From Heliocybe sulcata (lineage: Eukaryota; Basidiomycota; Agaricomycetes; Gloeophyllales; Gloeophyllaceae): 27,644 nt of DNA. Below are positions 3,622 through 27,644 of this stretch, piece after piece (position 1 is the stretch's first letter; every line of letters starts with the position of its first letter). The notes beneath the pieces are model-generated. The model was not told the origin of the DNA, did no database searches, and worked only from the letters and a program-made list of their open reading frames with translations. The translations under genes were made by a program, and so were the position numbers. Where the stretch lies: assembly GCA_004369045.1 (NCBI GenBank), contig ML213544.1, positions 75,550 through 103,193 on the forward strand. The letters are read 5' to 3'.

Positions 3622-5204
3622 GTGAAGGGCTAGATATGCAATTTGGATATCTTTGGGTTTGTGTACGAGTATATGAGATGCGTATGGGTGTACGAGTAAG
3701 ATCAGAAAGGTGAGCGCTTAGCCTCCTTTTTCGCCGTGCGGTACAGCTTACTCTAGACCGGTATGAATTTGGAGACTGCATAGGCACTGCTGTTGAGGAA
3801 TATAGGAATGCAATAGAAAATTCCGCCGACGCGAGCCATCTTGGAGTCCACCACGCTCTTCAGTGTATCCGAGATCCACAGGCAACTCACCACCGCCTTT
3901 CTCCCCAACAACGACTAGCGATGCAAGCCACGAGCCTTCCCTCCTTACACGCGTACCGGGTAGGCAACGGCGTACTCGAATGGTGTATCTTATCACGAAG
4001 CGCACGTGTGTCTACGCAAGTAAATGACACCCTTACCAACTCGCTGCAACCCCAATTTCTCGCTTTTAGGATGACCGGGGTGCAGTTCTTCCTCGTTGAC
4101 TGCGTCAATAACTTCCTCCTTTCCCGTGAGGACGGCGTGCAACCTGAGGGATGATTTTGTTACCTTCCATCTTAACTCTGCCCCCCGAAAGAAGATCGCT
4201 GCGAGGCCTCCCTGCCGTTCGCGGGATCTAAATCGCTGGCCACATGAAATGCGAAGCACACCACGTCTGCTGCCACGGGTAAAACGGAGCTGAAGATCTC
4301 TGCTTCTCGCCCATTGAATTACTTACCGGTTACCCACGGAAGCGCCACGCGATTCAGCCAAAGGGATCGCTGGGCAAGTGCAATCTGACACGGAAGCGTA
4401 GACAATGGGATTTTCGATACAACATCCCTGTCATCATTGAATAACGATTGTTTGGAAGGACAGATCAATTCAGTATCCAATCCCGCTTCCTTGCCGTAGG
4501 CGAGACGATCTGGGACCGGGATCGTTGCTAATAGTTTGAGGGGAATCTGACTTGGTGTTTGTATCAATGAATAGGCGACGGGCTGTCTGGATCAGCATGG
4601 CCAAGGACCCGGAAGTAGTTGTTGTAGCTCGACCTTCATTTTAGTTGCCCCGGGAGACAGTATTTATTTTGGAAATCGGTTTGCTCCGTATAGCACTGGG
4701 GGATGCTCGTTCGGCAACCGATGGTAGAGACTCTCGTCCTAAGTCAAAGGAAGCGATCTGTCGGGCAGCGGCGGTAATGAATAACGGAGATTAAAGCTGA
4801 ACAGTGGATCTTACGAGTTACAATTATGCCACAGAGGAAGTGCGCCACAAAATCATGCGTTCGCTCGATTGCATCAAGAGCAATGACCAGATCGAAAGGC
4901 AGCCGCAGTAGCGCACATGAGAAGGTACTTTCCTTGAGACGTCGCCAGTAAGGTTAGGTGCAAATCCGATCTCATCACGGGATCGATCGTCGCTCAGTGA
5001 TCTGACTTATACCAAGGTGCAAGGCTCCGAGGGGCTTGACCTACCCCCGTAATTGCAATATCGGATTACCGTCGCGGACGGTATCATCCTCGGTTTGAGA
5101 AAAGTTGTATACAGGACGGTCAAATACTTGGGTCAAGACAGCAATGCGTGAGCCTGTGCAGGCGGATGGACATGGGTATTGAATACACATGTACCTTTCA
5201 TAAA
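3622..5204. other. 1.6-kb intergenic region, no supported gene
   Basis: The best candidate is on the minus strand: an open stretch at about 4567-4319 ending in ALPWVTG, followed by a plausible donor (gtaagt, near 4326) and acceptor (cttcag). The continuation hits a stop within about 25 codons in the best-phased frame. There is no ATG at the head of the open stretch and I recognise no family. It may be a decayed gene; otherwise I see nothing. Confidence 0.4.
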
Positions 5205-8250: not shown

Positions 8251-10565
8251 ATGATCGTTGCGCTATGTTTCCTGAGCGCAGTTGCCTTACTTGTCGCTGT
8301 ATATCGCAGGTACACCCGTCTTACATTGGCTGATGTGCCTGGTCCAAAGGCTGAGTCATTCCTCCTTGGTGAGTAACATCGCACTAACACCTCAAAGTCC
8401 ACGACCTAACGCGCGTGTACACAGGCAACATGCGCGAGCTGATGCAAGGTGGCGCAACCGAGGCGGATACCATATGGCAGAGGCAATTCGGCGGCGTCGT
8501 CAAGTTTAAAGGCCCCTTTGGAGTAAGATGGAGCGATCTCTCGAAGCTATTGCCGCATCTTACACGATCTTGCCGCTAGGAAAACCGACTCATGGTATCA
8601 GATCCGAAGGCACTTCAACACATTCTGCACAGTTCGGCTTATCACTATACCAAACCCAACGGGTTCCGAAAAGCGATTGGAAGAATTCTGAATGGTAACG
8701 GACTGGTTGCTGCGGAAGGTACGTGACGTCGTCTGTCTCAATATATTATGGCCACGTTGAAGATGACCCTGCTAGGTGACGTACACAAGAGACAGCGGAA
8801 AGCAATGCTTCCCGCCTTTGGCGGCCCTGAATCAAAAGCCCTCTTCCCGGTCTTCAAGTCCATTTCTGAAGGCGTGCGTATGCTCTTATCCGCCGTTATT
8901 AGTATGACGCTGACCTGCATATCCAGCTCGTATCACACTGGAACGACGTGATCAGCAGCAGCGAAGACAAAGCCTCCGTGGTAGTCAACGCGCCCTGGTG
9001 GCTTAGCCGAGCCACGCTAGACGCAATCGGTGAAGGTCAGACAATCTTCAGACACGCTCTTCCATAGCCCTGACATATCGATCGCCAGCCGCGTTCGACT
9101 ACAAGTTCGGCGCTCTCGACGATGTCGACACCCAACTAAAACGTGCATACAGCAACATCATGTCCGTCTTCCTCCCTTTTCCTTCATCCCAAGTCTCACA
9201 TTTGCTTGTCCTTGCCAGCTTGACCCTTTTCGGCAATCCGTCTACCCCGCGCGTCTTCCTCGAAGCCTGTTCTGAGTACCTCCCCACGGGCCCCCTCGTG
9301 TGGCTCTTCAATACGCTCCCCTTCCGCCGTTTTGTGCGCCTGCGCGAGGCTTGCCGTGCGTCGGTTGATACCGCTGCCAGTTTGGTGAAGGAAAAGGGAC
9401 AGGCGCTGCTCGAGGGGAGGGGTAATAAGGATGTTATGAGCTTGCTTGGTACGCTTTTACCTCTTCGTTCAACGTCAATGCAGCCCGACTGATTGAGTGG
9501 TCGGTTGCAGTCAAGGCTAACGCGTCGACCAATGAGAAGGCGAAGTTGACTGACGACGAGCTGTACGCGGAAATGCGGTATGTTTAGCTGTCCTAGCTGC
9601 CTTCCTGTGCAAATATTCATTTACTGCAGGATCATCCTTTTTGCTGGGCATGAGACTACGTCCAACTCTCTGACCCTGATGCTCTGGGAGCTCGCCAAGA
9701 ACCCTCAAGTCCAAAGCCGTCTCCGCGACGAGATCCGAGCGACGGAAGCTGCCATGCGTGCGCGCGGGGCGAGCGAACTCACGCTCGCGGACATGGAGAA
9801 CATGCATTATCTGCAGGCGTTCCTGAAAGTGCGGCCTACTTCCCTGTCTCTTCTGTGTTGCGGCTCTGATTGCTGTCGTACTACCAGGAGGGTCTTCGTT
9901 TCCACCCGGTAGCGAGTAATATGTTCCGCCGTGCCACTCAAGACGATGTTATCCCTCTCTCTGCGCCTATGCGCCTTAGCAGCGGAAAGGTCGTCGGTGA
10001 ACTGACGGTTCCGGAAGGGACGAGTATGATCCTCTCCGTTGCGGCCTACAACAGGTACGTCTTTCGCTTGACTGATGATGGCTGAGCACAGATTGAAGTG
10101 CGAGGGAACTAGGGACAAGAATCTGTGGGGTGAGGATGCGGATGTGTTCAATCCCGATAGATGGCTGGATGGGGAGGGGAAGGAGAAGAAAAGAATCCCG
10201 GTCGGTGTTGTGGGGAACTTGTGAGTGCCACGCTGCCATCCGGATCCGCTTTGCCTCGTCGATCCCTGACACTATTCTCTTCCCAGAATGACATTCTCCT
10301 CGGGACTCCGCTCGTGCATCGGATGGCGGTTCGCGTAAGTACTCGCCATCTTGTCCATGTCCGATACTGATCATGACATTTTCAAAGAATGACGGAGATG
10401 CAATGCTTCCTTGTCGACCTCGTCAGCAACTTTGAGTTTGCGATCGCGTATCCCGAGAAACGGGTGCGGCGAGAAGGATCGGGACTGATGTTCCCTGTTG
10501 TGGTGGGTGAGGAGAAGGATGGGGTGAAGTTGCCGTTGAGGATCTCTGCGGCGCTGAGGGAGTGA
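8251..10565 (+). CDS. Cytochrome P450 monooxygenase
   Basis: This is a complete microsomal P450. Exons: 8251-8368, 8425-8522, 8580-8718, 8776-8873, 8927-9035, 9089-9448, 9511-9577, 9630-9828, 9888-10054, 10113-10220, 10287-10334, 10388-10565. All phases join, giving 562 aa. Residues 1-17 form a membrane anchor, followed by proline-rich VPGPKAES. The I-helix oxygen-binding motif is FAGHETTS (334-341), the K-helix ExxR is EGLR (397-400), the PERF-type motif is FNPDRW, and the heme loop is FSSGLRSCIG with Cys498 as thiolate ligand. All catalytic hallmarks are intact. A further 57-nt stretch inside exon 6 (9162-9218) may be an intron, which would give 543 aa. It resembles the large basidiomycete P450 families; I do not assign a CYP number. 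The substrate is unknown. The truncated P450 at 1199-1928 is a close paralogue in opposite orientation. Confidence 0.93.
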
Positions 10566-12401: not shown

Positions 12402-13729
12402 ATGGTCTTCACGAAGCTTTTATCTTTAGGTGGCCTCATCACCGCGGCATCGGCGGCCACGTACTCTCTTAGCGATAACTGGATTGGTCCTGCTTTTCTG
12501 AACACTTGGACGCACGAGGCTATTGCGGACCCCACCAACGGTCGAGTGTCCGTACTCTGATTCATTTATCGACACGAATAACGCTTATATTTGCCACTCG
12601 ACTCTTTGAATAGGAATTATGTGGACCAGGCCACCGCTCTGTCGCTTAACCTCACTTACACCTCGGACGATACGCTGATTATGCGATGTGACGACACTAC
12701 TGTACTGAGCTCCAGCGGGCCGGGGAGGAACAGTGTACGATTGAGGAGCGATAAAACCTACACAACTCATGTTGCTATGTAAGTTCTACGAAACTTCGCT
12801 TCTTTTATCTCAATGTAAAGAAATGGTCAGATTCGATATACGCCATATGCCCCAGGGATGCGCGACGTGGCCTGCGGTATGGGAGACTCTCGAGTCCGAT
12901 TGGCCGAACTCTGGCGAAGTCGATATCGTCGAAGGCGTGAACGACGTCTCGCCGAACCAGAGTACGTTGCACACCAGTTCGAATTGCACGATGCCAGCGG
13001 CGAGGGATCAGACTGGGTGATTGCCACTGCTCTGGACCCTGGTTAAATGCTCATGACGTTTTGCTAGAACCGCAGGGTCGAATGACTGCTACGGTGGCGA
13101 TAACAATAACTCTGGATGCGGCGTCCAGGACCCGACTACCAACAGCTACGGTCCGACCTTCAACGCGAACGGTGGAGGATGGTGCGGAAGACAACGCTTC
13201 ATCACATTCTTGTACTCATGCGACAACAGGTATGCAATGGAACGCACAAACAGCTACATCTCGATCTGGTTCTGGGCAAGGAACGACGGATCGGTTCCTT
13301 TCGACGTGAGCTCCGGACCGGCTCAGATTGACACAAGCACCTGGGTAAGTACCTTCGCCACTTCTCAGCGTCCTTATCCACTATTAAGTGCGTACCATAG
13401 GGAGAGCCGACAGCTTACTTCCCCAATACGGACTGCGACTTGGCTTCTCACTTTGGCCAGAACAATATCATATTCGATCTAACGCTCTGTAAGCCTGCGT
13501 TGTCGATCCCGTTTCGACAGCGATTGTTCTAATTCCGAGAGTAGGTGGAGACTGGGCTGGGGCTGTCTACAACTCGGATGGATGCTCTGGGGACTGCGTC
13601 AGTGAGTGGCGACTGTATGGACCCCTTGGTTGACCCGGAACTAACAGCTGTTAAGCTTACGTCAATGAGAACCCATCTGCATTTTCCAATGCCTATTGGG
13701 ACATCGGATTCGTGCGGGTGTACGAATGA
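12402..13729 (+). CDS. Secreted GH16 endo-beta-1,3(4)-glucanase, Lam16A-like
   Basis: This glycoside hydrolase family 16 enzyme is expected to cleave beta-1,3- and mixed beta-1,3/1,4- or 1,6-branched glucans outside the cell, for nutrition or fungal wall turnover. Exons: 12402-12547, 12614-12778, 12831-13016, 13068-13181, 13230-13344, 13401-13488, 13545-13601, 13656-13729; phases join to give 314 aa. Residues 1-18 are a signal peptide (MVFTKLLSLGGLITAASA), with mature ATYSLSDNW. The catalytic motif is GEVDIVEG: Glu133 nucleophile, Asp135, Glu138 acid/base, which are 115, 117 and 120 in mature numbering. Substrate-cleft and core segments include GPGRNSVR, HMPQGCATWPAVWE, NGGGWYAMERTNS and NPSAFSNAYWDI. 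By recall the layout matches the Phanerochaete laminarinase Lam16A almost end to end, with no added carbohydrate-binding module. It is convergent with the FunK1 kinase, 165 bp apart. Confidence 0.95.
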
Positions 13730-13894
13730 TCGACGCGGTAGCAGATAGATAGCTCAAGAATTGCACAAACGGCTCGCAGTCCTCCGTTCTATTCGTATGA
13801 ATCATCACGAACCAAATCATCCCTGCGCAATCCAATGACATACGTTCTCGTACTACCTTACGGTAGTCGTGCTAACTGTGCCGAGACATTTTAA

Positions 13895-16652
13895 CTACGT
13901 GGGCGAACGTCCAAGGCTGGTCTTGGCCATCTTGCACTTCCGCCGTTCCGGATCTTCAGGCTCGCCCGGTTGGCTTTGACTAGCACTCCGCTTGCTAGCA
14001 GACGATTGCGAGCGGGATGCAGTGGACCTGGACACCTCAAGAGCTTCAGCTTTTAGCTGGTCCTGAAGTTTATCCCCGCTGAGCCATCCGGTCTCCGTAT
14101 TCAAGTGGTCATACAGCAGCTCTATCATCGGGGTGTGAGTTTCGATGGGTGTGACATCTTCGAGGTCCGCGAATGTCTTCTCCTCATCCTCTTCGGAGTC
14201 CACATCAATCTCATGTGCGACGGAAGTCTTTGGTGTACTGGTAAGGAGACTCGCGATAGAGTCACGCTCCTGTGCGAATCCTAGAAGATACGACGGGGTA
14301 GCAGTCTTTGTAGAGACAGAGGTGATCGCCTCCTCGCGCACAGGAGCATTCTCCGGCTCAAGAAGATGGGGATGACTCTTTACGTAGTACTTCTTGAGCC
14401 ACTGCAATGACCTGCGTATGATCCTCCGCACATGCAGACTGTCAAACCGCAGAACCTTGGCCCCCGTGCTCAAGTAACCAGCATGAAAAGCACCCAGTTT
14501 CTCGCTTCCTCCACTTGCCTCTCCATTCGGCGCATAGTCGTACGAATCGAAGTACTGCCTCATGACCAACTTAACTGAGTCGCAGTTATGTCTGAGGTAA
14601 CGGAGACTTTCATAGATCAACACGTGGACAAAAGATTCCAGGTCGTCTGCGACTTGGTGAACTTTCTTTGGATTACGTAGCAGCGCTGCAGACATAAACT
14701 GCCATGTACCCTACTAACTGTGTTAGAAATGTCACAACGCATATTTCGCGGAGAAAATACGCACTGTGCGGTTCGGCTGCCTGGCCCCCTCTCTATTGGT
14801 CCTCACGTCCTTCGACAGATCCCAATCGTTCAGAATGGCCGTAGTGACAATCTCTGGCGAGCCGTCCGCTTGTAGCCGCCCCGTGGGGTGAGAGTAGATT
14901 AGGATGTTGCCGCGGCTGACGTCGCGATGAAGGATTCCGGCTCGTTCATAAGCCATGTAATGTGCTGAAGATCGATGAATATGGTAGCGGACACAATTGC
15001 ACGAGCGGACTCACCGACAACGGCATACATGATGGTCGCAATCAGTTGTCTAGACTCCTCGAAATCGTCGAGAGGCTGGCCAATTTCTGAGACGACCATT
15101 CGGTAGTGAATATGCGGCTTCATGGTATTCATCTCATCTGCACTGTCGCCTCTCGCATGTTTGTCCGTCAACGTTGACTGGGGCCCATCTAAGGCCGCTG
15201 GAGAGAGAGGAGCGTTCGAGCCCCGAAGTGCTGTCTGGACTGCATTTCCTTCTGAACTGGACTGGGTACCTAGCCATGGACCAGTCATACCAGCGCCACT
15301 GGCGGCCGGAACGTCGTCAGGAACAGGGTGCGTGGACTCTCCGGAGTTCAATCCACAACGGCTGCAGACGTCGCCGTCACATACGAGCGTAGGGACATAC
15401 TCGACCTGAGCTACCCGTAGAGCACGCAGGACATCACCCTCCTTCTGAATACCGGGTAACGAAACGCGCCAGCAGTCCTTCAAATAGAACAAGCGGCGCG
15501 TTTCCGGATCCATGGCAATATACCCCCGCGTCCCTCGTCCAGTGACACCGAGTGCCCGGAAATGAGGCTTCGCGACAAGGAAGTATCGAACCAGTTGCTT
15601 CTCTGCAGGGCGACTCTCGCCCAAAGGCAGGCTTTCAGGACTTTGAGGAGCGGTCTGTGGGGCAAGAACGTGCCGTACACAGTTGCAGTCGCTGACCTTT
15701 AGCTTCCACCAGGGCCAATCCTCGCGGAGAGAATCCTGCCAGTACTGGAGTTGCTTAGGAGTTAAGGCGTTGGGGTCTGGGCCTGCCTTCATCAGATCAT
15801 ACAACGCTGACGGTTTGTCAATCTTCTCAGCTGTCGGGTCGATACCTTGCTGCTCATCGGACAGCTTGCAGAACCGCCAGAGAAACTGAACAAGCAACGT
15901 TGGGTCTTCAACATAATCGACGAGATCAGAGACAAAGGCGCCAGCCTTATCCCAACGGAAGAAACGGGCGTAACGCCCCAGCACTTGAAGTGAGAAGATG
16001 TGGGTGCGCTGCTGGTGGGCGAGCATCGCCTCCGCATAACCAATCGCCTGTCCTCGAGTCTGCGTTGGTTTCTCCCCTAGGCGCTCGAACGCTTCCGTGG
16101 GGTCGTCACAGAATCCATCCACTTGACGGGCGACTTTCATTCCCTTGAACTCAACAAAGACACGCATGTTGCTCCATCGTGTGGCGCCATCCTGAGGCGC
16201 CTGAAGCTCGGGATACAGGCCCACATCTGGAACTTGCCTCCCTCTTCCGCGGTAGTCCTGCGGATCCCCCTTATGCGGCGTGGCGACGAATTTATAGCCT
16301 GAGCAGAAGTTACTTTCATGTACGACTTGAATCTAGGAAAGTATAGTCAGCAGCTAACCCGGATAGTAATACCCGACTGCCTAACCCAAGGTGTATACAT
16401 GCCACGTTCTGTCTGGATAGTTTCCATGGGTCTGAAAATGTCGGGAGAGAATGTCGGAGTGTTGCCCCATTCAGCCTGGACAGGCATGAATCTATCCAGC
16501 CATTCTATTCCCGCCAGCCTAATGAACTCCCCATTCATATCAAGTGCGTGCTGTTTCTTCCTTTCCTCGGCGGCCGGCTCTTCGTGGGCGTGAGGACGAG
16601 AGCCCGTTGTAGACCTTTTGTAAGGCGAACTGGAAACCTGAGACGAAGGCAT
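13895..16652 (-). CDS. FunK1-type fungal protein kinase
   Basis: This belongs to the fungal-specific FunK1 kinase family, expanded in multicellular basidiomycetes; substrates and pathway are unknown. Exons: 16652-16386, 16332-15015, 14964-14765, 14710-13895; phases join to give 866 aa. An N-terminal family region of about 350 residues precedes the kinase core. Likely ATP-binding Lys is K374 (RLFYLKDCWR), with helix-C Glu near E387. The catalytic loop is HRDVSRGNIL (H541, R542, D543, N548). The DFG position reads DWD (D575-D577), usual for FunK1, and the activation segment ends in GTWQFMSA (596-603). The key catalytic residues therefore appear present. The C-terminal tail has an acidic DVDSEEDEE patch and a Ser/Arg-rich end, possibly regulatory. 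The start is the first true ATG (MPSSQVSSSPYKRS); an upstream GTG at 16709 is in frame but not expected to initiate. The gene is convergent with GH16. Confidence 0.88.
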
Positions 16653-17243
16653 TGTAGCAGATGAGGGTGACGAACCTCGATAAGGAGAGCGCCCAGGTAT
16701 ACCGCGCACTGTGTGGTCTAATGTGGCACTGTTTGTTTGACTTGTGTTCTATCACGTTAGCACGAGGTTGATGCCCTGTTTCTCACCTCGGGTTTCGGGA
16801 AGCAATCACGGCGCGGAAGGATCTTGACTCAAACGATTATAGGAATGGTTCCAGGAATAGTCGTCTTGCAATGCAGCGTGCACGCAGTTCCAGCAAAGAT
16901 GCTGTTGCAGCAGTCACGCAGCAGTTCGAGTAACGGCCCACGATCACGTGATTTTGCAAGAGGCGCGCGTCCGCGACGCGCCACGATGGAAGACTGTGGC
17001 GTCCGTCGATATGACTCTATATTGACTACAATATACGTTTACGGGGTATCCGTTCCTTGTGCCTTGCGATACGTACGCCGCAACAGGCCTGCGGCAGCAG
17101 TATCGAGCAAGATTGTATATGGATCAACTCATGAAACACGCGACAGATTGTCTGTAGGACCTGGGAGCTATCATTACGATGCACGCGGCTGTATGCACTT
17201 TGCGTGTCGAGGGTCAGTAACCCATGAGTTGGAGCAGAGAATA
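16653..17243. other. Intergenic region, no supported gene
   Basis: Upstream flank of the FunK1 gene. The open frame at 16824-17300 (+) has no recognisable domain and overlaps the antisense relic exon at its end, so I do not call it a gene. Confidence 0.4.
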
Positions 17244-17286
17244 CCGATGTTCATAGCCGACTGGGATGTGGCTTTGATGCGAGGCA
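17244..17286 (-). pseudogene. Relic of exon 1 of the 18227-19542 gene family
   Basis: This 43-bp segment matches 19499-19541 at 37 of 43 positions on the same strand. It encodes LPRIKATSQSAMNI where the intact gene has MPRVKATSKSAMDI. The start codon has become TTG and the strong donor gtgagc has become gtattc. No later exons of the gene can be seen nearby, so it is a degraded partial duplicate. Homology is short, but it covers exactly the coding part of exon 1 in the right orientation. Confidence 0.65.
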
Positions 17287-18226
17287 AGTACTGCACATGA
17301 CGGCCAGTTCTCGGATCGATATGCTGTGGAGTTTGAGGTTCCCGGGGCGGAAAAGACATACAATACAAATAGTTTTCGAGCTTAGAAGCTAGTTTGGTGT
17401 GCAACAGCGGTAAGAGAGCTGCACAAAGCTGGACGAACGCACGACCGGAGCGCAATCGATTGTTATCCAGCGCGCGTTGTTATGCGACTACAAAACTACT
17501 TGTTACTCGATCTCGATCTCTATCTTCGACATACTCAGACGTGCTCAGCTCATCTCCGATCCCCAAGCGTCTATGATCCCGACGGCAAAAAAGATCTAAT
17601 TTTTGCGAGCGTAAATCTCACGCCAAATCAACCAGCCTGTCTACCGACATTCTGCCCCAATGGCGGTACGGAAGGTTGGTCACGAGCCTAATCCTTACCC
17701 ATCGGATGTGGTTCAATGCTGTCTTATTTTTTGTTAGCTCAAACTGCATATAGCCAGTAGTGCTGGATCTCTTTACAGAGAAGCCGATGATCGTTGTAGA
17801 ACGAGGTCACGGAGCACCCGAGCTTCGACTGATCATGAAAGCAGAGCTTGGAACGAGACTTCAAGTTGGCACCAGCAACGATCGCCGCCTTTACTGCGCA
17901 TGAGGATCAAGGCGTACAGGTGGGTGTCCCAAGGACGATGGTCACAGCGGCCTAGCGACGTCTCCCCGCTGAATCTGGCGAGTACTTCATGCCGAAGGAG
18001 GGAAGTCTCCGGAAGAGTGTGCTGGTCTGCTTGCGTATGAGTAGCGCAGTGGCCTATGTACGCCCAATATCAGATCTTGTGGTAATGTCCACCGTAGTCA
18101 GTGCATTCAGGCGTAATCTGCCAGTTCTACGTTGATCAAGAGCACGGCGGAGTAGGGGTGCGGGGATTTGTATACCAAGAGCAGTTATTAAGGATGCACA
18201 AACGAGCGCAGCAGGATACCCAACCG
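17287..18226. other. Intergenic region, no supported gene
   Basis: No recognisable coding region, RNA gene or repeat was found. The open frames are short and without family features. Confidence 0.4.
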
Positions 18227-19542
18227 TTAAGCATACTCGGCCCTGTCCGCCATGTCCTTCAATCCCCACTGAATCGCGTCCACCTGGAATACACTGAACT
18301 CGCCCTTCTGCACCAGCTTTTGAAAAAATGCGTCCACACGCGACTCGGGCCGCGCAGCGAGCGCTCGGAGGCACCTGAAACAAAGTTCCCTGTCAATCGC
18401 AGGATAGAGTAAGCGGAAATGGAGGACGTTTACTCTGCATTCGAGATTCCGAGGCGATTGAAGACGGGCCACAGGTGAGGCTGGGGCGGAGAGAGAGACG
18501 AGAGGAAGGCTAGGACGGAGTCGGAGGCGGAGGGGTCAGAGGGAGCGGCGTCGGGCGAGGAGAGGAGCGTCGAGCTGGACGCCTGCGAGCTGGCGCGCGG
18601 CCTCGAAGCTGATGACTCTGGAATCTGCGCCCTGAACAACGTCGGAGGCTGCAGGCACGTGGGACTGATTTTGGGTGGTACCTCGACGTACATCTGGGAA
18701 CAGCGTCAGTGATATTCGCGGCGAATGCAGTTGCGGTGATCTACCTGAGGAGACTTTGCAGATTCCAAGGGCTCCCTCGGTTTGCGGAAAGATTTTGCCT
18801 ACATCCGGACCTCAGACGCCATGGCACCTCTGCCGAGAGTGGGACTTACGATGTGCTCTTTCTCTCCGTCCGACTCTTCCTTGAGATCGTCCGAGCTCAT
18901 CAGCCGCTCACTTGCATTATAGAGGACCACAGCACTCGATGCCGTCTGCGGACCGGCATTTCCATTCTCCTTGTCCTTCCTCGCGAGACCCTTTTTCACC
19001 TTCTTGCCCTTCTTACCTGCCGCACCCGACTTCGTGCGAGACAGCGCAGAGTGCCTCTGATTCGCCATCCAGCGCGTCACGTAGTCTCTAAGTGGATAAG
19101 AGTTCGGGAACCTCGCGAAGATCGGGAACTCTATCGTGGCCTGCATACATGAGAGTCAGCATACGAGCAGTGCCTTGTTGTACTCACCGTTTGGAGGAAC
19201 TCGTCCCAATTTCCTGGTACCTGATCCCGCAGCGTACTCTCCGTGTCGAGGTACTCGCTCGCGAGCGCTTGTACAGCTTTCTGCGTAACCGATAAAGTCA
19301 GCTGCGTTGTTTCGCGCAACAGAAGACAGAACATGCATACCCAGAGCTTTTTAGCCTCTGCATCAGGCAGGATCCCGCCAATGGCTCTCGTGTAACTCAG
19401 ACGCGTGGATTTCTGCTGGCGTGCGCGGGGGGTCGTCGCGCGTACTATTCATGGCCGCGTGTCGAGTAACCGCAAATACGTAAAGGAAACAAAGCTCACC
19501 AATGTCCATAGCGGACTTGGATGTGGCCTTGACGCGAGGCAT
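18227..19542 (-). CDS. Uncharacterised 312-aa basic protein, member of a local family
   Basis: I do not recognise the family. Exons: 19542-19500, 19444-19341, 19280-19188, 19140-18850, 18693-18434, 18374-18227. All five introns are GT..AG, 48-157 nt, and phases join exactly, which strongly supports a real gene. The N-terminus is MPRVKATSKSAMDI; next comes a helical region with RLSYTRAIGGILPD and TLRDQVPGNWDEFLQ, then FARFPNSYPLRDYVTRWM. A lysine cluster at about 123-135 (KKGKKVKKG) could be a nuclear localisation signal. A Ser/Pro-rich, probably disordered linker follows. The C-terminal 70 residues (HLWPVFNRLGISN, CLRALAARPES, DAFFQKLVQKGEFSVFQ) look like a compact helical module. There is no signal peptide or membrane span. 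Its 5' flank lies in the left inverted-repeat arm, and an exon-1 relic lies downstream at 17244. Function is unknown; a nuclear or DNA-associated role is only a guess. Confidence 0.75.
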
Positions 19543-19608
19543 ACCGAGCAGAGGAAGATTAGCGCGAGAGGTTAACGGAGGAAGACAGGCGCTGCGTACC
19601 TTTATAGT

Positions 19609-19971
19609 CGCCGTAGCTTTGTTAATAACATTCTCCTACCCTGCTAATACGTAACTAAGGCCTACAAAGTGCGACATATATATAGCTCCGTTCAAACGCG
19701 GCCGGCGCAGGACCGCGCTCATTCAGTGTTTACAAATTCATATTGTCTTGACATGCGGCCTGGCTCCATGGCAAAGACAAACGCCACGATAATTGAATTA
19801 ATGCTGTATCGAACAGGCGCAGACAGGGATTGAACTGTCGGACATCGCGCGCACGAAGTAAGTGCGCAGTAGAACCCAGAAACGGCTGTTCAGAAAGAGG
19901 CATGTCAGTCACGATCACATGACCGTGACTCATCCCGTTGGCCCGTCACACGGCTACTTACCCTGCATCGC
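19609..19971 (-). repeat. Left arm of a long inverted repeat (at least 363 bp)
   Basis: Read on the minus strand, this matches 27282-27644 on the plus strand with one mismatch found by eye (19967/27286). The pairing follows the rule left + right = 47253. It begins 66 bp upstream of the ATG at 19542, and therefore includes the likely promoter of that gene. The right arm runs to the last base of the window, so the repeat may extend outward. Each arm holds the same 67-codon open frame, with no known domain and probably not a gene. Confidence 0.95.
19672..19683 (-). promoter_or_regulatory. TATA-like element upstream of the 18227-19542 gene
   Basis: The minus strand has GCTATATATATG about 130 bp upstream of the ATG at 19542. 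It lies inside the inverted repeat and is therefore duplicated in the right arm. The spacing allows a core promoter with a 5' UTR of roughly 100 nt. Confidence 0.4.
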
Positions 19972-20023
19972 GGGGATAATTTAAAAAGTAAATCTAAAAT
20001 TTATACTTTACATATTTTTTCAT
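19972..20023. other. AT-rich 52-bp segment found only beside the left arm
   Basis: This segment lies between the 363-bp arm and a further 20-bp block (20024-20043) that also has an inverted partner at 27263-27282. On the right the two blocks are adjacent. The segment is strongly AT-rich in a GC-balanced setting. It is either an insertion in the left copy or a deletion in the right. Confidence 0.6.
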
Positions 20024-20043
20024 CATTGGCGGATCGTCAAGCA

Positions 20044-21108
20044 GTGGCGGAGCCCATGCAACCAGTCTAGCTACCAAGCACCCATGGTAAGGGCAACTCT
20101 CGTTTTGACAAGATGTGCACTTGATGAAGCGAGCTGTACCTCGATACGGTTCGTCCTTGTCACCGGTGAGGGACATGGGCTATTGCGAGCGGGGGGGAAC
20201 TGCCTAACACTAGGTGCGCTTCCTAACGCTCTCATTAGGGACGTTCGATAACCTTGGCTCGTTCCGACTAGGGTTCTCCTTGCTCTGATTCGACTGGACT
20301 CCGAGAGCATTGGGCTGCAATTACTTGATTTCCCCTTGGAGCTACTAGGCGCCCTCACGGCATCGGAGAGCTGAGATTTGAGCGCAGGACTTAGGTCGAG
20401 TGAGAAAAGACTGGATAGCAAGCAGGACTTTTCGTCCTCGCATTAGCGACCACTGTTCGGTGAGGGCATCCTGAGGATTAGAAATGGACCAGTGTCTGAT
20501 CCATTTGTTGGGAAATGGATTTGGAAGATCCGAGAGATAAGCTGAAAGACGGGTATGGTGAGCAGCAGAGATAAGGTATGTGAGTGATAGAACTGTCGGC
20601 ATTATGACTCGATGACTACCTAGATTCCTTTCGATAGACGACAGGGTGAGGTGAGCAATAAGACGGCAAGTACCATCAAATTCTGGACGAGGAGAAAACC
20701 TCGGCGAGTAGCTTCATGCGTAGAGAAAGAACGGCACGATCTCGCGCCTTCGGAGTAGCTGACAAAGGCGACGCGTACGCTTGCCGGGCGTCATTCGATT
20801 AGAGACTATTTAAAGGGCTGGCTCTAGAGGAAGTCAGATGACTGTTATTCGTGCGGTAATGTTGAGCAGGCCACGCGACTATATCATCTCATCTGTGGCA
20901 GCGACTTTGCCACATCTCATTCACTCTTCTGCTATCGCTGCCTGCACCCAATCGCAGGTGCCGATCATTTATCAGCCATCATCTCTGCGGTCGTCTTCGT
21001 TGTCTCCGATTGGCAGTGATCGCAGAGGTACTCTACGTACGATCGCCAGTACCGCCGCTCCCATTTCGAAGCATTTCCCTCGGCCCGATGTCGTCACCGG
21101 TGCTGCTG
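20044..21108. other. Intergenic region upstream of the aldo-keto reductase
   Basis: Weak similarity to the inverted partner continues for about 30-40 bp past 20043 (AGTCTAG..CTAC on both sides, with a small gap). Minus-strand open frames at 20602-20345 and 20421-20071 have Ser-rich translations without a known domain. An open frame extending the aldo-keto reductase upstream to 20838 is taken as 5' flank. Confidence 0.4.
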
Positions 21109-21116
21109 TTTATAAG
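21109..21116 (+). promoter_or_regulatory. TATA-like element of the aldo-keto reductase gene
   Basis: TTTATAAG lies about 70 bp upstream of the ATG at 21186. This favours 21186 over the in-frame upstream ATG at 20838, which would add 116 residues with no counterpart in the family. Confidence 0.5.
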
Positions 21117-21185
21117 CACACTTCACGTCGGCACTCCGTCGCCCACTCTCCCTTTTCCCTCCGTCCACCACCACAGTACAGCACA

Positions 21186-22836
21186 ATGGCGATGAAAAAC
21201 ACGGCTGAAGATGTCAAAATCGAGTTCAACGCGAAGGGCATGCCCTTCCGCCAGCTCGGGTCTTCGGGCCTGCGCGTGCCGGTATTCTCCCTCGGAGGCT
21301 GGCTCACGCTCGGCGGGACGGTCGTTGGCGATCCTGTCAAGGTATGCATCTGCTATAGACTGTGATCTCGCCTTATTCACTGGTAGGCTAGGAAATCATT
21401 AAAATTGCGTATGAGAATGGTATCAACATGTTCGATACCGCCGAGGCGTATGCGAAGGGAAAGTCTGAGATCGAAATGTGAGTGCGATGTCTCTTTCTGC
21501 GGAATCAGTCTCTCAGTCTTATCATGTACAGGGGTCGTGTGATCAAAGAGCTCGGCCTGCGCCGTACCGACCTCATCATCACCACCAAGATCTTCTGGGG
21601 CCCGCGCGACGGCCCCAACGACAAGGGTCTCTCCAGGAAGCAGTGAGCTTATTCAATCCATGCAGTCATTCGATGAACGAACGGCTGTTCCCAGCATCAT
21701 CGAAGGCACCCGCGAGTGCCTGCAGCGTCTCCAGCTCGACTACGTCGACGTCCTGTTCGCGCACCGGTACGACGTGACCGTGCCGATGGAGGAGGTCGTC
21801 CGCGCATTCCACTGGATCATCGAGCAGGGATACGTGCGTGCCGCTCTCTGTCGCCTGATTTGCTCACACGCTCATAACCTCCATAGGCGTACTACTGGGC
21901 AACATCCGAGTGGTCCGCGCGCGATCTTGAGGAGGCGATCCGTAAGTCTCCCGTTTTGAGCTCTCCTCTCCTGCTCACGGTACACTGTGCCTCACGCGTG
22001 CAGAAATTGCGGACAAGTACGGCCTCCACAAGCCTGTCGCCGAGCAGTGCCAGCACAAGTGCGTCTTTCTCCCCCTCCCTTTTCTGGCCCACTGACGCAC
22101 CGCATAGCATGCTCCACCGCGAGCGCCCCGAGAAGGAGTACGCGCCGCTGTACAAGAAATACCGCATCGGGACAACGGTCTGGAGTGCGCTCGCGAGCGG
22201 GCTGTTGACCGGCAAGGTGCGTGCTTCGCCCTCTTTCCAAGCTATAGACTCATCTCTCCCGCGCACAGTACAATAATGGCGTGCCCGAAGGCTCGCGGTT
22301 CGACCTCAACAAGGACTTTTTCAAGAACACGCTGCAGTCGCTCACCGAGGAGGAGGGCCTCGCGAAGATCGAAAAGGTCAAAAAGCTGACGGCGCTTGCG
22401 GAGAAGAGTGCGTGCTCTGGTTGGCTGTTGGCTCTGTACTCACCATGGCTCTCTGCGTACGGCCTTGACTTGTCTCGGTAGAGCTCGGCTGCAGCCCTGC
22501 GCACCTCGCGCTCGCGTGGGTCGCGAAGAGCCCGAACACGAGCACGGTGATTCTCGGCGCGAGTAAGCCCGAGCAGGTCAGTCTCCTATTCCGTGGCGCC
22601 TCTCCATCTAACCACCCCGCCATCCCAGGTCATCGACAACCTGAAGGCGATTGAGGTCATCCCGAAACTGACGCCCGAGGTGATGGAGGAGATCGAGGGC
22701 ATCCTCGGGAACAAGCCGGATCCTTACGTGCGTTCTGATTCAACATGATGAGTAGCATGATGGCTGATGTTGGCGTGTGTAGCTGACTTATGGTCGACCG
22801 CCGTTGGACGCGTTCGGGCGGGATCCGATCTACTAA
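21186..22836 (+). CDS. Aldo-keto reductase, voltage-gated K+ channel beta-subunit type
   Basis: This NADPH-dependent aldo-keto reductase resembles the Kv-beta (AKR6) group. In fungi such proteins are soluble and probably reduce aldehydes, ketones or quinone-like compounds. Exons: 21186-21341, 21392-21477, 21532-21642, 21695-21833, 21887-21941, 22004-22058, 22108-22216, 22269-22407, 22482-22576, 22629-22727, 22783-22836; phases join to give 365 aa. The N-terminal barrel strand is [19 protein letters not shown]. The catalytic tetrad is Asp67 and Tyr72 ([11 protein letters not shown]), Lys100 ([10 protein letters not shown]) and His141 (DVLFAHRYD). Cofactor-site segments include [15 protein letters not shown] and, near the C-terminus, [13 protein letters not shown]. 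Length is usual for the family. It is one of two intact genes enclosed by the inverted repeat and lies upstream of phospholipase B on the same strand. Confidence 0.95.
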
Positions 22837-23574
22837 GGGAAGGCAAAGGGATATGCAAGATGAGAAGGATAGCAGAAGGTGTACAAGGGTGCGCAGGGAA
22901 ACTGGGAGATGTATGAGAATAGGCAACGAAAGGAAATGTATTGGTATTGAATCGAAAGCACAAGTGTGGCTGTGAGTGTTGTTCTCATCCACGTCGATCT
23001 AATGTCCTGGACTTGGTCGATCTGCCATCTCTCAACTCGGCGGGTTAGGGTTCCCTGCGAGTCGGCGTGAGATACCCATGGCCAACGTAGGATTATTACG
23101 GAAAGGATGGAAGTATTGTGTTCCACAAACTCCCCGCCACTTGCTCTGCAGTCTGGAAGGGAAGGCAAGCTGGAGAATTTCCGGCATTCTGAGGCTCATA
23201 TTCCCCGGCTCGTCTTCATTCTTCCTCGTTTTCGCAGACTGCAGCCGATCCTCGTCGCAGTACCCGCCACGCGCTGACTAGCAACACGGCTCATGAGATG
23301 CAGCGTCCATTCCTGGAAGCAGACACATTACGGCAGAAAGATGTAGTTCCTGGAAGTCATCAGGCAAGGAACGGCATCACCAATACTCCCAGCCCAGTCC
23401 TAAATCCAACTCGAAAGCAGTCATCTGACCTTCCTTGCCCTCCTTCGACGTTGCGGAGCGAGAAGGTATTTTCAAAACGCTGCCGATATATCTCCGCACC
23501 TCCTACCCCGCATTCCCATTAAATGCACCTCGCGATACTTCCCAAATGCACCAGCGCGTCTGCCCGGCCTCGCC
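22837..23574. other. Intergenic region between aldo-keto reductase and phospholipase B
   Basis: No gene is seen. A weak AT element, GATATATC at about 23485-23492, lies some 85 bp before the phospholipase B ATG and could be its TATA box. Confidence 0.4.
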
Positions 23575-25599
23575 ATGCTGTTCACCATCGTCGCACTCGC
23601 GGGCACCGCCTCGGTCGCCGCGCTGACGGCCTCGCAGGCGTACACGCCCACCGCCGGCGCCTGCCCCGCTGGCTTCTCCCTCGTTCGGAACGCAGGCAGC
23701 CCCGCGACGGGCCAGACGCTCTCGCCCTCCGAGGCGGCCTACATCGCGACGAAGCGGGAGACCGTGCTCCCCCATGCTTTCCGGACCTACCTCGACACGG
23801 TCGTGCGCACGCAGGTGCAGCTCCCGGCGTACATGTATAATATCCTGGGGAGCGAGGATCCGGAGCAGATGCCGACCGTAGGGATCGCGACGAGCGGCGG
23901 GGCGTATAGGGCGGCGCTGTTTGGCGCGGGAGTGCTGAATGCGCTGGATGGGAGGAATGAGAGCAGTTTGGAGAGGGGCACGGGGGGGCTGCTGCAAGCG
24001 ACGTCGTATATCTCGGGCCTTTCTGGGGGCAGCTGGCTCGTGTACTCGCTGGCGCAGGCGAATTTCCCTCCGGTTCAGCAACTTGTCTTTGGGGAGAACG
24101 TTGAGGGCGGGTATGGCGGGTGGAACCTCGAGTATGGGACGCTCACTCTGTACCCGTCAACGGACGATGCTACCGACGCGGAGTATATGAGCCAGACTGT
24201 TGCAGATATCACTGGCAAGTATGAGGCTGGATGGCCCGTGTCGATCGTCGACCTTCTGAGTCGGAGCATGGGGAGACATTTCTTGAACGATACAACCCAG
24301 AGCAACTTCTTCGACAACAGCACGGTGCATGGTGCCGGCGTCTTGTTTTCGGATCTCCAAACTGTGTAAGTGCAAAGCGAATTGAGAGTGTCGGTTGGTT
24401 GACATGGTTTCGTATAGCCCGACAATCATGTCACGCGAGCAGCCGTTCCCCATCGTGGTTGCGGACGGCTGGTCGAAATATCCGTATGGCGCCGATGGAG
24501 GGGAGGCGCTGGGAAGCCTGGTTCCGCCATCGAACGTTATCTATGAGTTCAACGCATGTAAGCCGCCAAACTGACCCGTGTTTTATTATGTGTATCAGGC
24601 TACTGACGGCGGTTCTGACGTATTTTGCAGACGAGATGGGGTCGTATGACCCGCAGCTCGCTGCCTTTGCGCCGATCCAATACTTGGGTACCACCAATGA
24701 GAGCGTATGCATAACGGGCTTCGAACAGGCGTCTTTTATCGTCGGAAGCTCTAGTGATTATTATGCAGCAAGTAACTCGAGTGTGCGTACATTTCGCTCT
24801 TCGGTTTGCATGCATATGGATGATTGGACTCCTATAGTACGCGAGTATCATGGCCTCCGCGGGGTCTTGGATTACTCTGGTGAACGAGTCCTTCACGCAG
24901 CCGGGTGTGCAGCTCGATGTTGCCTTGTATCCCAACCCTTTCCAAGGCGCGGGCAACGGCTCCTTTACCGAAGTCAACGAGACTTACCTGAGTATCGTCG
25001 ATGGAGGAAACGATGGCCAGGCGATCCCGATTCAACCGCTCCTCGTGAAGGCGCGAGCGATTGACACGCTGATCGCGATTGACGTGAACGCGGAGGTCAA
25101 CAACTACGCTACTGGAGGAGATTTCATTGTACGTACCTCCTCAACACTCTCCTGCGCACATTCTCATAGCGTATGTTATCAATTGCAGTCATCTGCAACT
25201 CGCGCTGCACTGTTCCCGGAAGCATACTCATTCCCGCCTATCCCGCTCAACACCAGTACGTTCGTCGCGGAGAACCTCACCACCCGCCCGACTTTCTTCG
25301 GATGCAACACGCCCGAGACCCCGCTCATCGTATACATCGCGAATGGTGGCCCACCAGCAGGACAGCCCGCGGTGACCAACACGAGCGATGATACGTGGAC
25401 GCCGACACTCGCCGAAGCGTTCCTGGATCAGACTTTCGATATGGCGACGCAGGGAATCACGAATGGCACAGTGGGCGCTAGAGATGCGGAGTGGGGTGCA
25501 TGCTTGGCATGCGCAGTTGTTGACAGGGAAAGATATCGCCAGGGTATCGCGAGAAGTGGGGTTTGCGAGACTTGTTTGGCGAGGTACTGTTGGAGTTGA
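23575..25599 (+). CDS. Secreted phospholipase B / lysophospholipase
   Basis: This fungal phospholipase B is expected to hydrolyse acyl esters of phospholipids and lysophospholipids outside the cell or in the wall. Exons: 23575-24365, 24418-24557, 24631-24782, 24838-25128, 25189-25599; phases join to give 594 aa. The N-terminus MLFTIVALAGTASVAALTASQA is a signal peptide. The oxyanion/arginine segment is IATSGGAYRAAL (Arg112), with SGGA where many relatives have SGGG. The nucleophile elbow is SGLSGGSW (Ser150), and the catalytic Asp is in SIVDGGNDGQAIP (Asp416). The C-terminus carries the typical Cys-rich signature WGACLACAVVDRER..CETCLARYCW. Many N-x-S/T sites suggest heavy N-glycosylation. 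There is no C-terminal hydrophobic tail, so a GPI anchor is unlikely. Length is near the family norm. A fragment of a second copy lies about 0.65 kb downstream. Confidence 0.95.
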
Positions 25600-26246
25600 A
25601 TAACCAATTAGAGAGGCTATTTTACCGGGTTAGAGGGACTTAACTGGGTTGCGGAATCAGTACCTTTGGGTCATCGGGACACTTGCAACGCATAGTCGTT
25701 TGATAGGTACTTGGCATTGCAGGATTTGTGATGCATGTCTTCGCAAGGATTGCAATCCCGAGACATGGTAATGAGGGCCCTGCGTTGTACGGCGAACGAA
25801 GGCGGGATGTGTCTCTTCAAGGTGACGTCTCGAGAAAGGAAGTCTTGGAATCAGTTCATCAGCACGCCCTATTGCTGCACGACCGGGGACACGGCAAGTT
25901 CTGCTCCAGATTTACTCGATTCGCAGCAGGTTCGAGGAGGCTGGGTCGATGGAATCGTCGCCCCGCTAAGGCGTTTCAGAAGTCGGTACGAATCCAGTCA
26001 AACGCCAGCGCGAATCCCCCAAGCACGTAAGCAGAACAGGCTTGAGGTCAACCTTGGAAGAACGGGCTTTGTAGGAGGCTCACGTAACCATCGCTCTGAC
26101 TTGGCCCCGAACAGACGCCGAGAGGAACTGCGGCATCGTGGCTTGCATGAGCCCACGATAAAAGTGTTCGTGTGATGCATCTCCTACGCATCATGCCGCG
26201 AACGAAAATACGCGAGGAAGGAATTTCTACATACCTAATCAGCCAG
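25600..26246. other. Region downstream of phospholipase B, no supported gene
   Basis: An open frame at 25735-26175 (+) has no recognised domain. Because a phospholipase B relic follows directly, part of this stretch may be decayed duplicate DNA, but I could not align it to the intact gene by eye. Confidence 0.35.
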
Positions 26247-26297
26247 AGGTTTTTTGAATGTAACACGCACGAGACCCCGGCCCTCATATCCATCGCC
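26247..26297 (+). pseudogene. Phospholipase B relic fragment
   Basis: The segment encodes RFFECNTHETPALISIA, matching TFFGCNTPETPLIVYIA encoded at 25291-25341 in the intact phospholipase B, with a similar nucleotide run (ACACG.CCGAGACCCCG type). The frame closes soon after and no catalytic motifs are seen, so this is a broken partial copy in the same orientation. Its full extent is unclear. Confidence 0.5.
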
Positions 26298-26369
26298 AGC
26301 AGCATAGCCTGCGCTTGGATGCTGGAGGCCTCCGAATTTCTCGCTTCTGTTCGAGGTCCTCGGAGTACC

Positions 26370-27122
26370 CCTTAAACGATACAGATGGTAGCATTCGGAC
26401 AGCTGATATGCAAGGAAAAGGATACCGTCAACTTGCTCTGTCCTCTCTTCCGGAGGCTGACTCAGTGCCTCTCTGAGATCTCGAAACATGACGTCCAGGT
26501 ACGAAGCGACGGATCCGTCCTCTGGACCCTTGCGACCTTCATCTACCATACTGCGGTAATGTTGTCTAATGCCGTTGTAGTCGCGGAATTCATACTGAGG
26601 CTCCATCCACTTGCCTGGCCCAAATCCATGTATCTAGTGGAAGTCATGTCGGGGCATGCCGCGGAAGAATGCCTCCAGCGGCTCGACCACCTTGTCCATA
26701 TGCCTCAAGATCCCATGCATACCGTAGCACTTAACGGTGCCAAGTAGCTCCGTCTCCTGTGCACCACGGCGTAGAGCTGCAAGGAGCTGGTCGGCCGCGT
26801 CCCGATCCTCTTGCTGGAGTGCGGAGTTTATGGCGAGCTTCAATGAGACACTGCCATCCCTGTGCATGGTCATAGTGACCGCAGCATATCGACCCTCTCG
26901 TCCCGTAGAGACAGTTGCAGCAATGTCATCTAGAACCTTGAGGTCATCGTCGCGATCGTCCACGCCAAAAGGCAGATCATGGTGCTTGCCGGCCTTAAGT
27001 CTGGTCCAGCGCTGCGACTTCTTTCAGTTCTCGGGTTAGTTCTGCTGTAGAGGGATATACTTCAGTGTCACAGTGGAATGTGCGAAGAGCAGTTATTCGG
27101 ACCCACCTTGAGTATCGTTCAT
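26370..27122 (-). pseudogene. Decayed gene of unknown family
   Basis: I do not recognise the family. A short exon 1 (27122-27107, MNDTQ) has a good donor, and exon 2 from 27044 begins AELTRELKEVAAL. That frame stops at 26997, whereas the following protein-like sequence (TRLKAGKHHDLPFGVDDRD) is in another frame, so a frameshift near 27010 is likely. The main frame runs through helical, acidic sequence to LLGTVKCYGMHGILRHMDK and on to RHDFH, where a TAG stands at 26636-26634. The same frame continues open beyond it (GKWMEPQYEFRDYNGIRQHY .. LFLAYQLSECYHLY). The TAG may be a nonsense mutation or the acceptor of a 57-nt intron (26690-26634). The real C-terminus is probably near 26370; the open frame then runs antisense through the phospholipase B relic. 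No signal peptide or membrane span is seen. Confidence 0.6.
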
Positions 27123-27182
27123 TGTGTTCCTATAGATGCCTGCGATAGATGCTGGTGTGGTGAGGGTGGATCCGGGGGGCAT

Positions 27183-27189
27183 CTTATAA
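27183..27189 (-). promoter_or_regulatory. TATA-like element of the decayed gene
   Basis: The minus strand reads TTATAAG about 60 bp upstream of the ATG at 27122. The spacing supports that ATG as the original start. Confidence 0.4.
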
Positions 27190-27262
27190 GCCAACACACA
27201 TCTGGTCAGCCGGGTTGTTATGTTATCCTTCCCTTGTAGCAGTCTAGACTGCAGCCTTCTTG

Positions 27263-27282
27263 TGCTTGACGATCCGCCAATG
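27263..27282 (+). repeat. Inner 20-bp block of the inverted repeat, right side
   Basis: TGCTTGACGATCCGCCAATG is the exact reverse complement of 20024-20043. On this side it abuts the long arm directly. Confidence 0.85.
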
Positions 27283-27644
27283 CGACGCAGGGTAAGTAGC
27301 CGTGTGACGGGCCAACGGGATGAGTCACGGTCATGTGATCGTGACTGACATGCCTCTTTCTGAACAGCCGTTTCTGGGTTCTACTGCGCACTTACTTCGT
27401 GCGCGCGATGTCCGACAGTTCAATCCCTGTCTGCGCCTGTTCGATACAGCATTAATTCAATTATCGTGGCGTTTGTCTTTGCCATGGAGCCAGGCCGCAT
27501 GTCAAGACAATATGAATTTGTAAACACTGAATGAGCGCGGTCCTGCGCCGGCCGCGTTTGAACGGAGCTATATATATGTCGCACTTTGTAGGCCTTAGTT
27601 ACGTATTAGCAGGGTAGGAGAATGTTATTAACAAAGCTACGGCG
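27282..27644 (+). repeat. Right arm of the long inverted repeat, cut by the window end
   Basis: This is the reverse complement of 19609-19971, with a single mismatch seen. The last base corresponds to 19609, only 67 bp short of the start codon of the 18227-19542 gene. If the repeat continues, a second copy of that gene could begin just outside the window, reading rightward. Confidence 0.95.

Follow-up and report, generated by a model that had tools for sequence, protein, structure and literature searches.

A probable low-copy inverted segmental duplication, cut off by a contig end, near a chromosome end in Heliocybe sulcata

The 27,644-nucleotide stretch of Heliocybe sulcata DNA analysed here (the window; C42:75550-103193) contains two near-identical sequences of 363 bp in opposite orientation, the second of which ends where the contig itself ends. 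The question raised by this locus is whether the two sequences constitute a short and complete repeat, the ends of a mobile element, an artefact of assembly, or the visible part of a larger structure. The overall interpretation that we consider likely is that the window cuts into a subtelomeric segmental duplication that is inverted and of low copy number, the second copy of which is represented by one piece at the end of C42 and another at the end of a different contig, C50, with a gap between them.

The left arm sequence (19609-19971, + strand), which is the inner part of the left arm of a larger block (block D, see below), was found by self-comparison to recur in inverted form at 27282-27644 (- strand), with 7,310 nt separating the two 363-nt sequences. 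On exact comparison the arms are identical at 362 of 363 positions, a value that the repeat-finding step rounds to 100%, and the sole mismatch is at window position 19967, 4 bp short of the inner limit of the 363-bp match; the first-pass annotation, which had reported a near-perfect inverted repeat with one visible mismatch, was correct in this regard. The match between the arms (E 1.3e-186) is far above chance. A genome search for further copies of the arm (31.6 Mb, 51 contigs), which had been proposed as a check, returned two places among the matches listed, both in C42, the count being a lower bound for the searchable part of the genome.

At its inner edge the left arm continues with an AT-rich stretch of 53 bp (19972-20024) that is absent from the right arm, and then with 19 bp (20025-20043, + strand) that are the exact reverse complement of the corresponding bases of the right copy (27263-27281, - strand). 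Similarity between the arms stops past these 19 bp (20043/27263). The inner edges thus do not merely diverge, as initially described, since an exact match first follows the left-only stretch. Because of the 53-bp indel, and the exact bases after it, the right arm reads as a copy that has had time to age, with one small indel, rather than as a cleanly joined fragment. A gene for a tRNA or another RNA within the arms was also considered, on account of a tRNA-like stretch, and was dropped when neither ARAGORN (run with the bacterial code) nor Rfam (with its gathering thresholds) gave such a gene in the window.

C42 is 103,193 bp in length and the right arm stops at its final base (C42:103193), and the arm length of 363 bp is for this reason a limit of the assembly and not a biological limit. 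A position exactly at a contig end is also what would be expected of an assembly or library chimera, i.e. of a contig end that has been extended by an inverted read fragment, and the right ends of C18 and C23 each finish in a comparable manner, with a 112-nt inverted copy (99%) of their own sequence. The latter two ends have in addition 1,829 bp in direct (99.8%) and 1,280 bp in inverted (100%) orientation in common. They were considered as a second case of the anatomy described here and then set aside, since their frames, judged by motifs, read as what we take to be a Copia-type retrotransposon; they serve only as a caution. Several features of C42 are, however, difficult to reconcile with a chimera. 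An artefactual hairpin arising from a missed adapter would place the inverted halves side by side, whereas here they are 7.3 kb apart, with unrelated sequence between, and the edge has indel differences, and this form of artefact was rejected on these grounds. A copied read would not differ from the left arm by a mismatch and by a 53-bp indel beyond which 19 bases match again, the block hit by the arm is independently duplicated on C50, and a fragment that landed there at random would have had to find a target of ~6.8 kb in 31.6 Mb. A chimeric right arm is, in our judgement, very improbable.

The sequence missing from the end of C42 is probably present, in large part, at the end of C50. The right end of this 29,711-bp contig carries window positions 13259-18544 in + orientation; in the genome search C50:24427-26267 corresponds to window 13259-15100, and C50:26167-29711, i.e. 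up to the end of the contig, to window 15000-18544. The orientation fits a continuation of the arm that is cut in C42, with C42 running outward from 19971 to 19609 and C50, when followed inward from its right end, from 18544 to 13259. The two pieces do not overlap and cover different parts of block D, and for the 1,064 bp that lie between them (18545-19608) only diverged relatives, at 65-85%, are present genome-wide among the matches listed. On the simplest reading, in which we infer the join, the two contig ends are probably one second copy of block D (13259-20043, + strand for the left, proximal arm), split by a gap of 1,064 bp; the outer limit of D is set by the start of the C50 similarity and its inner limit by the end of the similarity to the right arm. 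The arms would then probably be ~6.8 kb in length around a 7.2-kb spacer. Thus, the 363-bp arms first described are real, and with a further 5.3 kb on C50 they are probably only a fraction of the repeat. Inverted placement within C42 itself is seen for 363 bp plus 19 bp, the other 5.3 kb depending on the joining of C50 across the gap.

Segmental duplications span 1 kb or more, with an identity of 90% or above, and are not high-copy repeats. In the present case the second copy comprises 5,285 bp on C50 and 363 bp on C42, with identity at 5,034 of 5,045 positions over C50:24667-29711, and no third near-identical copy of either the C42 or the C50 piece is present among the matches listed in the genome, these counts being lower bounds. 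It may instead be that the C42 and C50 ends represent two different copies, or that C50 is the version from the other nucleus of a dikaryon, so that D would be dispersed or allelic rather than a 6.8-kb inverted repeat confined to a single locus. C42 and C50 are not joined by any sequence, the 1,064-bp gap being unobserved, and near-identical ends can remain unmerged in this assembly: the left end of C2 and the right end of C15 agree at 99.8% over 1,784 bp, in the same orientation and up to the limit of both compared stretches, reflecting either an unmerged end overlap or a repeat common to both. Separate copies would, however, predict at least one further copy of 18545-19608 and 19609-20043 beyond C50, and none is found among the matches listed; the two fragments are, moreover, non-overlapping and complementary, and their orientation fits. 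We consider separate copies unlikely, and the reading as a single second copy with a gap is retained in what follows.

C50 also provides the evidence for nearness to a telomere, in that its left end opens with an 11-nt telomere-type run. Such runs are present at 16 of the 66 readable contig ends among 80 that were inspected (51 left and 29 right, of 102 in all), that of C50 being the shortest of the 16. The repeats at these ends mix TTAGG with TTAGGG, which is why an initial search with four perfect TTAGGG units found no telomere, and it was the subsequent reading of the contig ends that showed the telomere-type runs. The first 3 kb of C50 have no similarity to the other contig ends examined. 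With C42 linked to it by the proposed join, the duplication is probably near a chromosome end; if the join is right, the outer edge of the distal arm would lie ~24.4 kb, and the end of C42 ~31 kb, from that end, and the order would be unique DNA, D, spacer, inverted D, ~24 kb and then the telomere.

Block D contains host genes. Its outer edge (13259) lies inside a laminarinase-like gene (12402-13729, + strand, limits read by eye), presumably of family GH16; the assignment is derived from one structure-database search with one frame, 13057-13482, which matches 2cl2/2wlq PUTATIVE LAMINARINASE (E 1.4e-20) and has no Pfam family at E 0.01. Similarity to C50 begins only at 13259, and the C50 copy consequently has only the 3' part of this gene. 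Because it begins inside the laminarinase-like gene, the distal (C50) copy is probably the derived one. Also in D is a gene for a fungal-specific protein kinase (13895-16748, - strand, boundaries approximate), in three open frames (13895-14710, 14899-16332 and 16347-16748). PF17667 is found in the second of these (E 7.9e-17) and, below the cut-off, in the first (E 1.3e-4), and the only Pfam match of the third is unrelated and likewise below the cut-off. The C50 copy of this third frame, which is thus without Pfam support, has an in-frame stop, an observation that points to possible decay of the kinase copy in the distal arm.

A further gene of D, at ~18100-19541 (- strand), is uncharacterised; two of its frames have no Pfam match, and the genome search gave diverged relatives at C50:19198-20481 (- strand, 66-77%) and at two places on C15 (65-92%). 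The C50 relative is inverted relative to the D block of that contig, and the two C15 relatives, C15:291873-292994 (+ strand) and C15:300206-301191 (- strand), are ~7 kb apart in opposite orientation. A 44-bp direct similarity (86%) between 17243-17286 and 19498-19541 is perhaps a common start of two adjoining minus-strand genes in D. The block also contains, at 17337-17692, one end of a dispersed element, of which there are two copies on C1 and one on C10, at 95-96%; in all three an inverted end of ~92 bp accompanies it, so that the element measures ~1.2 kb overall. More diverged ends of the same element are present elsewhere in the genome.

The spacer (20044-27262, 7.2 kb) contains the two genes that the first-pass annotation had placed between the arms, both of which are supported by Pfam. 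The aldo-keto reductase gene is represented by one exon-containing frame (21543-21959, + strand; PF00248, E 8.3e-08), and the phospholipase B gene (23404-25599, + strand) by several open frames, with PF01735 in 23404-24369 (E 5.9e-30) and in 24838-25599 (E 3.3e-27). Two open frames at 26235-27023, which correspond to one of the two relics noted at the outset, have no Pfam match. The sole other similarity of the spacer among the matches listed is to one place on C1 (73-85%), in the aldo-keto reductase part.

Long, near-identical inverted arms on either side of a segment of a few kb could also be the terminal inverted repeats of a DNA transposon that carries the spacer as cargo, and the dispersed element with inverted ends that has one end in D might appear to add to this. 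That end, however, is within D and not at its edges, the outer edge of D falls inside the host laminarinase-like gene, and host genes are present within the arms. Only two near-identical copies are found among the matches listed in 31.6 Mb, the 7.3 kb between the arms has no dispersed relatives among those matches, and a Pfam scan of 16 frames, of which 5 lie in the spacer, recognised no transposase, a test that covers a subset of frames. A transposon origin of the arms is barely credible, and the preference expressed at the outset for an inverted segmental duplication over a transposon end is supported, though at a different scale.

Two further similarities in the window lie at a distance from block D. 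Positions 1-1205 are a dispersed repeat, with at least 23 near-full-length matches at 74-95% in addition to partial ones (39 of 144 candidates scored), the first frame of which (1-459) has no Pfam match. An 87-nt inverted similarity (75%) links 1317-1403 with 8772-8858; a motif suggests that these may belong to a pair of oppositely oriented cytochrome P450 genes, but the frames tested near them, 1221-1754 and 9034-9492, have no Pfam match.

The differences between the two copies of D are distributed unevenly. Over C50:24667-29711 there are 11 differences from the window in 5,045 bp, with no gaps; going inward, there are none in the first 823 bp, then 8 in 69 bp, then 3 in 4,153 bp. The island of 8 differences (14323-14391) is thus surrounded by a near-identical core, only 3 differences being present in the other 4,976 bases compared on C50. 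When 11 differences were placed at random 200,000 times, clustering of this degree never arose, the maximum being 5. The island lies in the kinase frames, where it changes 8 codons, 6 of the 8 changes being replacements. By contrast with the core, the outermost 241 bp of D are 95% identical, C50 being one base shorter, and at the opposite edge the 363-bp part has 1 difference in 363 and is followed by the 53-bp indel. Identity in the core is thus well above that at the edges, and it changes in blocks, the pattern expected of arms that undergo gene conversion.

This block-wise pattern, with diverged edges, one diverged island and a near-identical core, is the reason that we favour, though not exclusively, an older duplication whose copies gene conversion has since made partly alike; the sequences suggest such a history rather than dictate it. 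A recent duplication with a conversion tract from a third relative is likewise compatible with the mosaic, and the 69-bp island could stem from such a third-relative conversion, or from relaxed selection, instead of from incomplete homogenisation. The near identity of the arms had at first been ascribed to recent duplication or gene conversion. Of these, conversion, of recent date, is favoured by the mosaic, and the duplication itself would be rather older, again not exclusively.

In the favoured model, an inverted copy of D (~6.8 kb) would have been placed beyond the 7.2-kb spacer, on its telomere side. Later exchange between the arms by gene conversion would have kept the core near-identical, with the edges and one 69-bp island drifting. 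The assembler would have passed the first arm and the spacer and halted 363 bp into the second arm, at the end of C42, the remainder becoming the end of C50. A dedicated function for the arrangement would be unnecessary. An extension of this model, which is speculative and rather doubtful, is that continuing conversion keeps the 6.8-kb subtelomeric arms near-identical and that they act as an invertible segment, such that the 7.2-kb segment bearing the genes for the aldo-keto reductase and for phospholipase B would exist in both orientations in a population, and the kinase gene would exchange sequence between its ancestral version and one on the telomere side with an apparent premature stop.

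Where inverted repeats lie close to the ends of fungal chromosomes, those ends can become inverted or rearranged, and such repeats also break assemblies. The 363-bp arm marks the stop of the assembler, the biological unit probably being nearly twenty times larger. The spacer may flip if the arms recombine, and likely consequences of the arrangement are in the dosage of the kinase and in such inversion occurring from time to time. The pattern of differences also provides a small, well-defined place for measuring gene conversion between inverted arms.

Comparison with known systems places the locus among several related types. At the level of titles and the beginnings of abstracts, no report that could be tied to this locus was found, which says nothing firm about what is in print. 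The arms of human Y chromosome palindromes are homogenised by gene conversion; a near-identical core with more diverged edges is similarly present here, with the difference that conversion is deduced from one genome only. A fungal parallel is Zymoseptoria tritici, with a large palindrome on chromosome 14, flanked by Copia-type elements, and inverted repeats of chromosome 17 that are hypothesised to recombine and so rearrange a chromosome (PMC3681731). The presence of a large inverted repeat in a fungus is common to both cases. By contrast with the chromosome 14 palindrome, no dispersed repeat was found at the searched edges of D, and the arms of D are parted by a 7.2-kb spacer.

With respect to origin, inversion of a segment by staggered breaks leaves inverted duplications at both of its ends, and the layout of D, spacer and inverted D is the footprint expected of such an event (PMC7584159). 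Such an origin is a minority possibility for the spacer, though one with some substance; it concerns origin only, is compatible with the favoured model, and its likelihood is not to be added to those of the other readings. The duplication is long for the version that involves single-strand overhangs, the sister-chromatid version staying possible, and the comparison has no uninverted relative with the ancestral arrangement that would show inversion of the spacer. The data do not choose between a staggered-break inversion and a repair-based copying event.

The closest likeness is to low-copy, inverted subtelomeric segmental duplications, in that more than 5 kb are present at more than 99% identity, in two copies found, with host genes inside and apparently near a chromosome end; the difference is that the second copy is here split by an assembly gap, so that its full length is a deduction. 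The locus is thus an example of a known and ordinary kind of genome rearrangement, to which the signs of gene conversion add a little.
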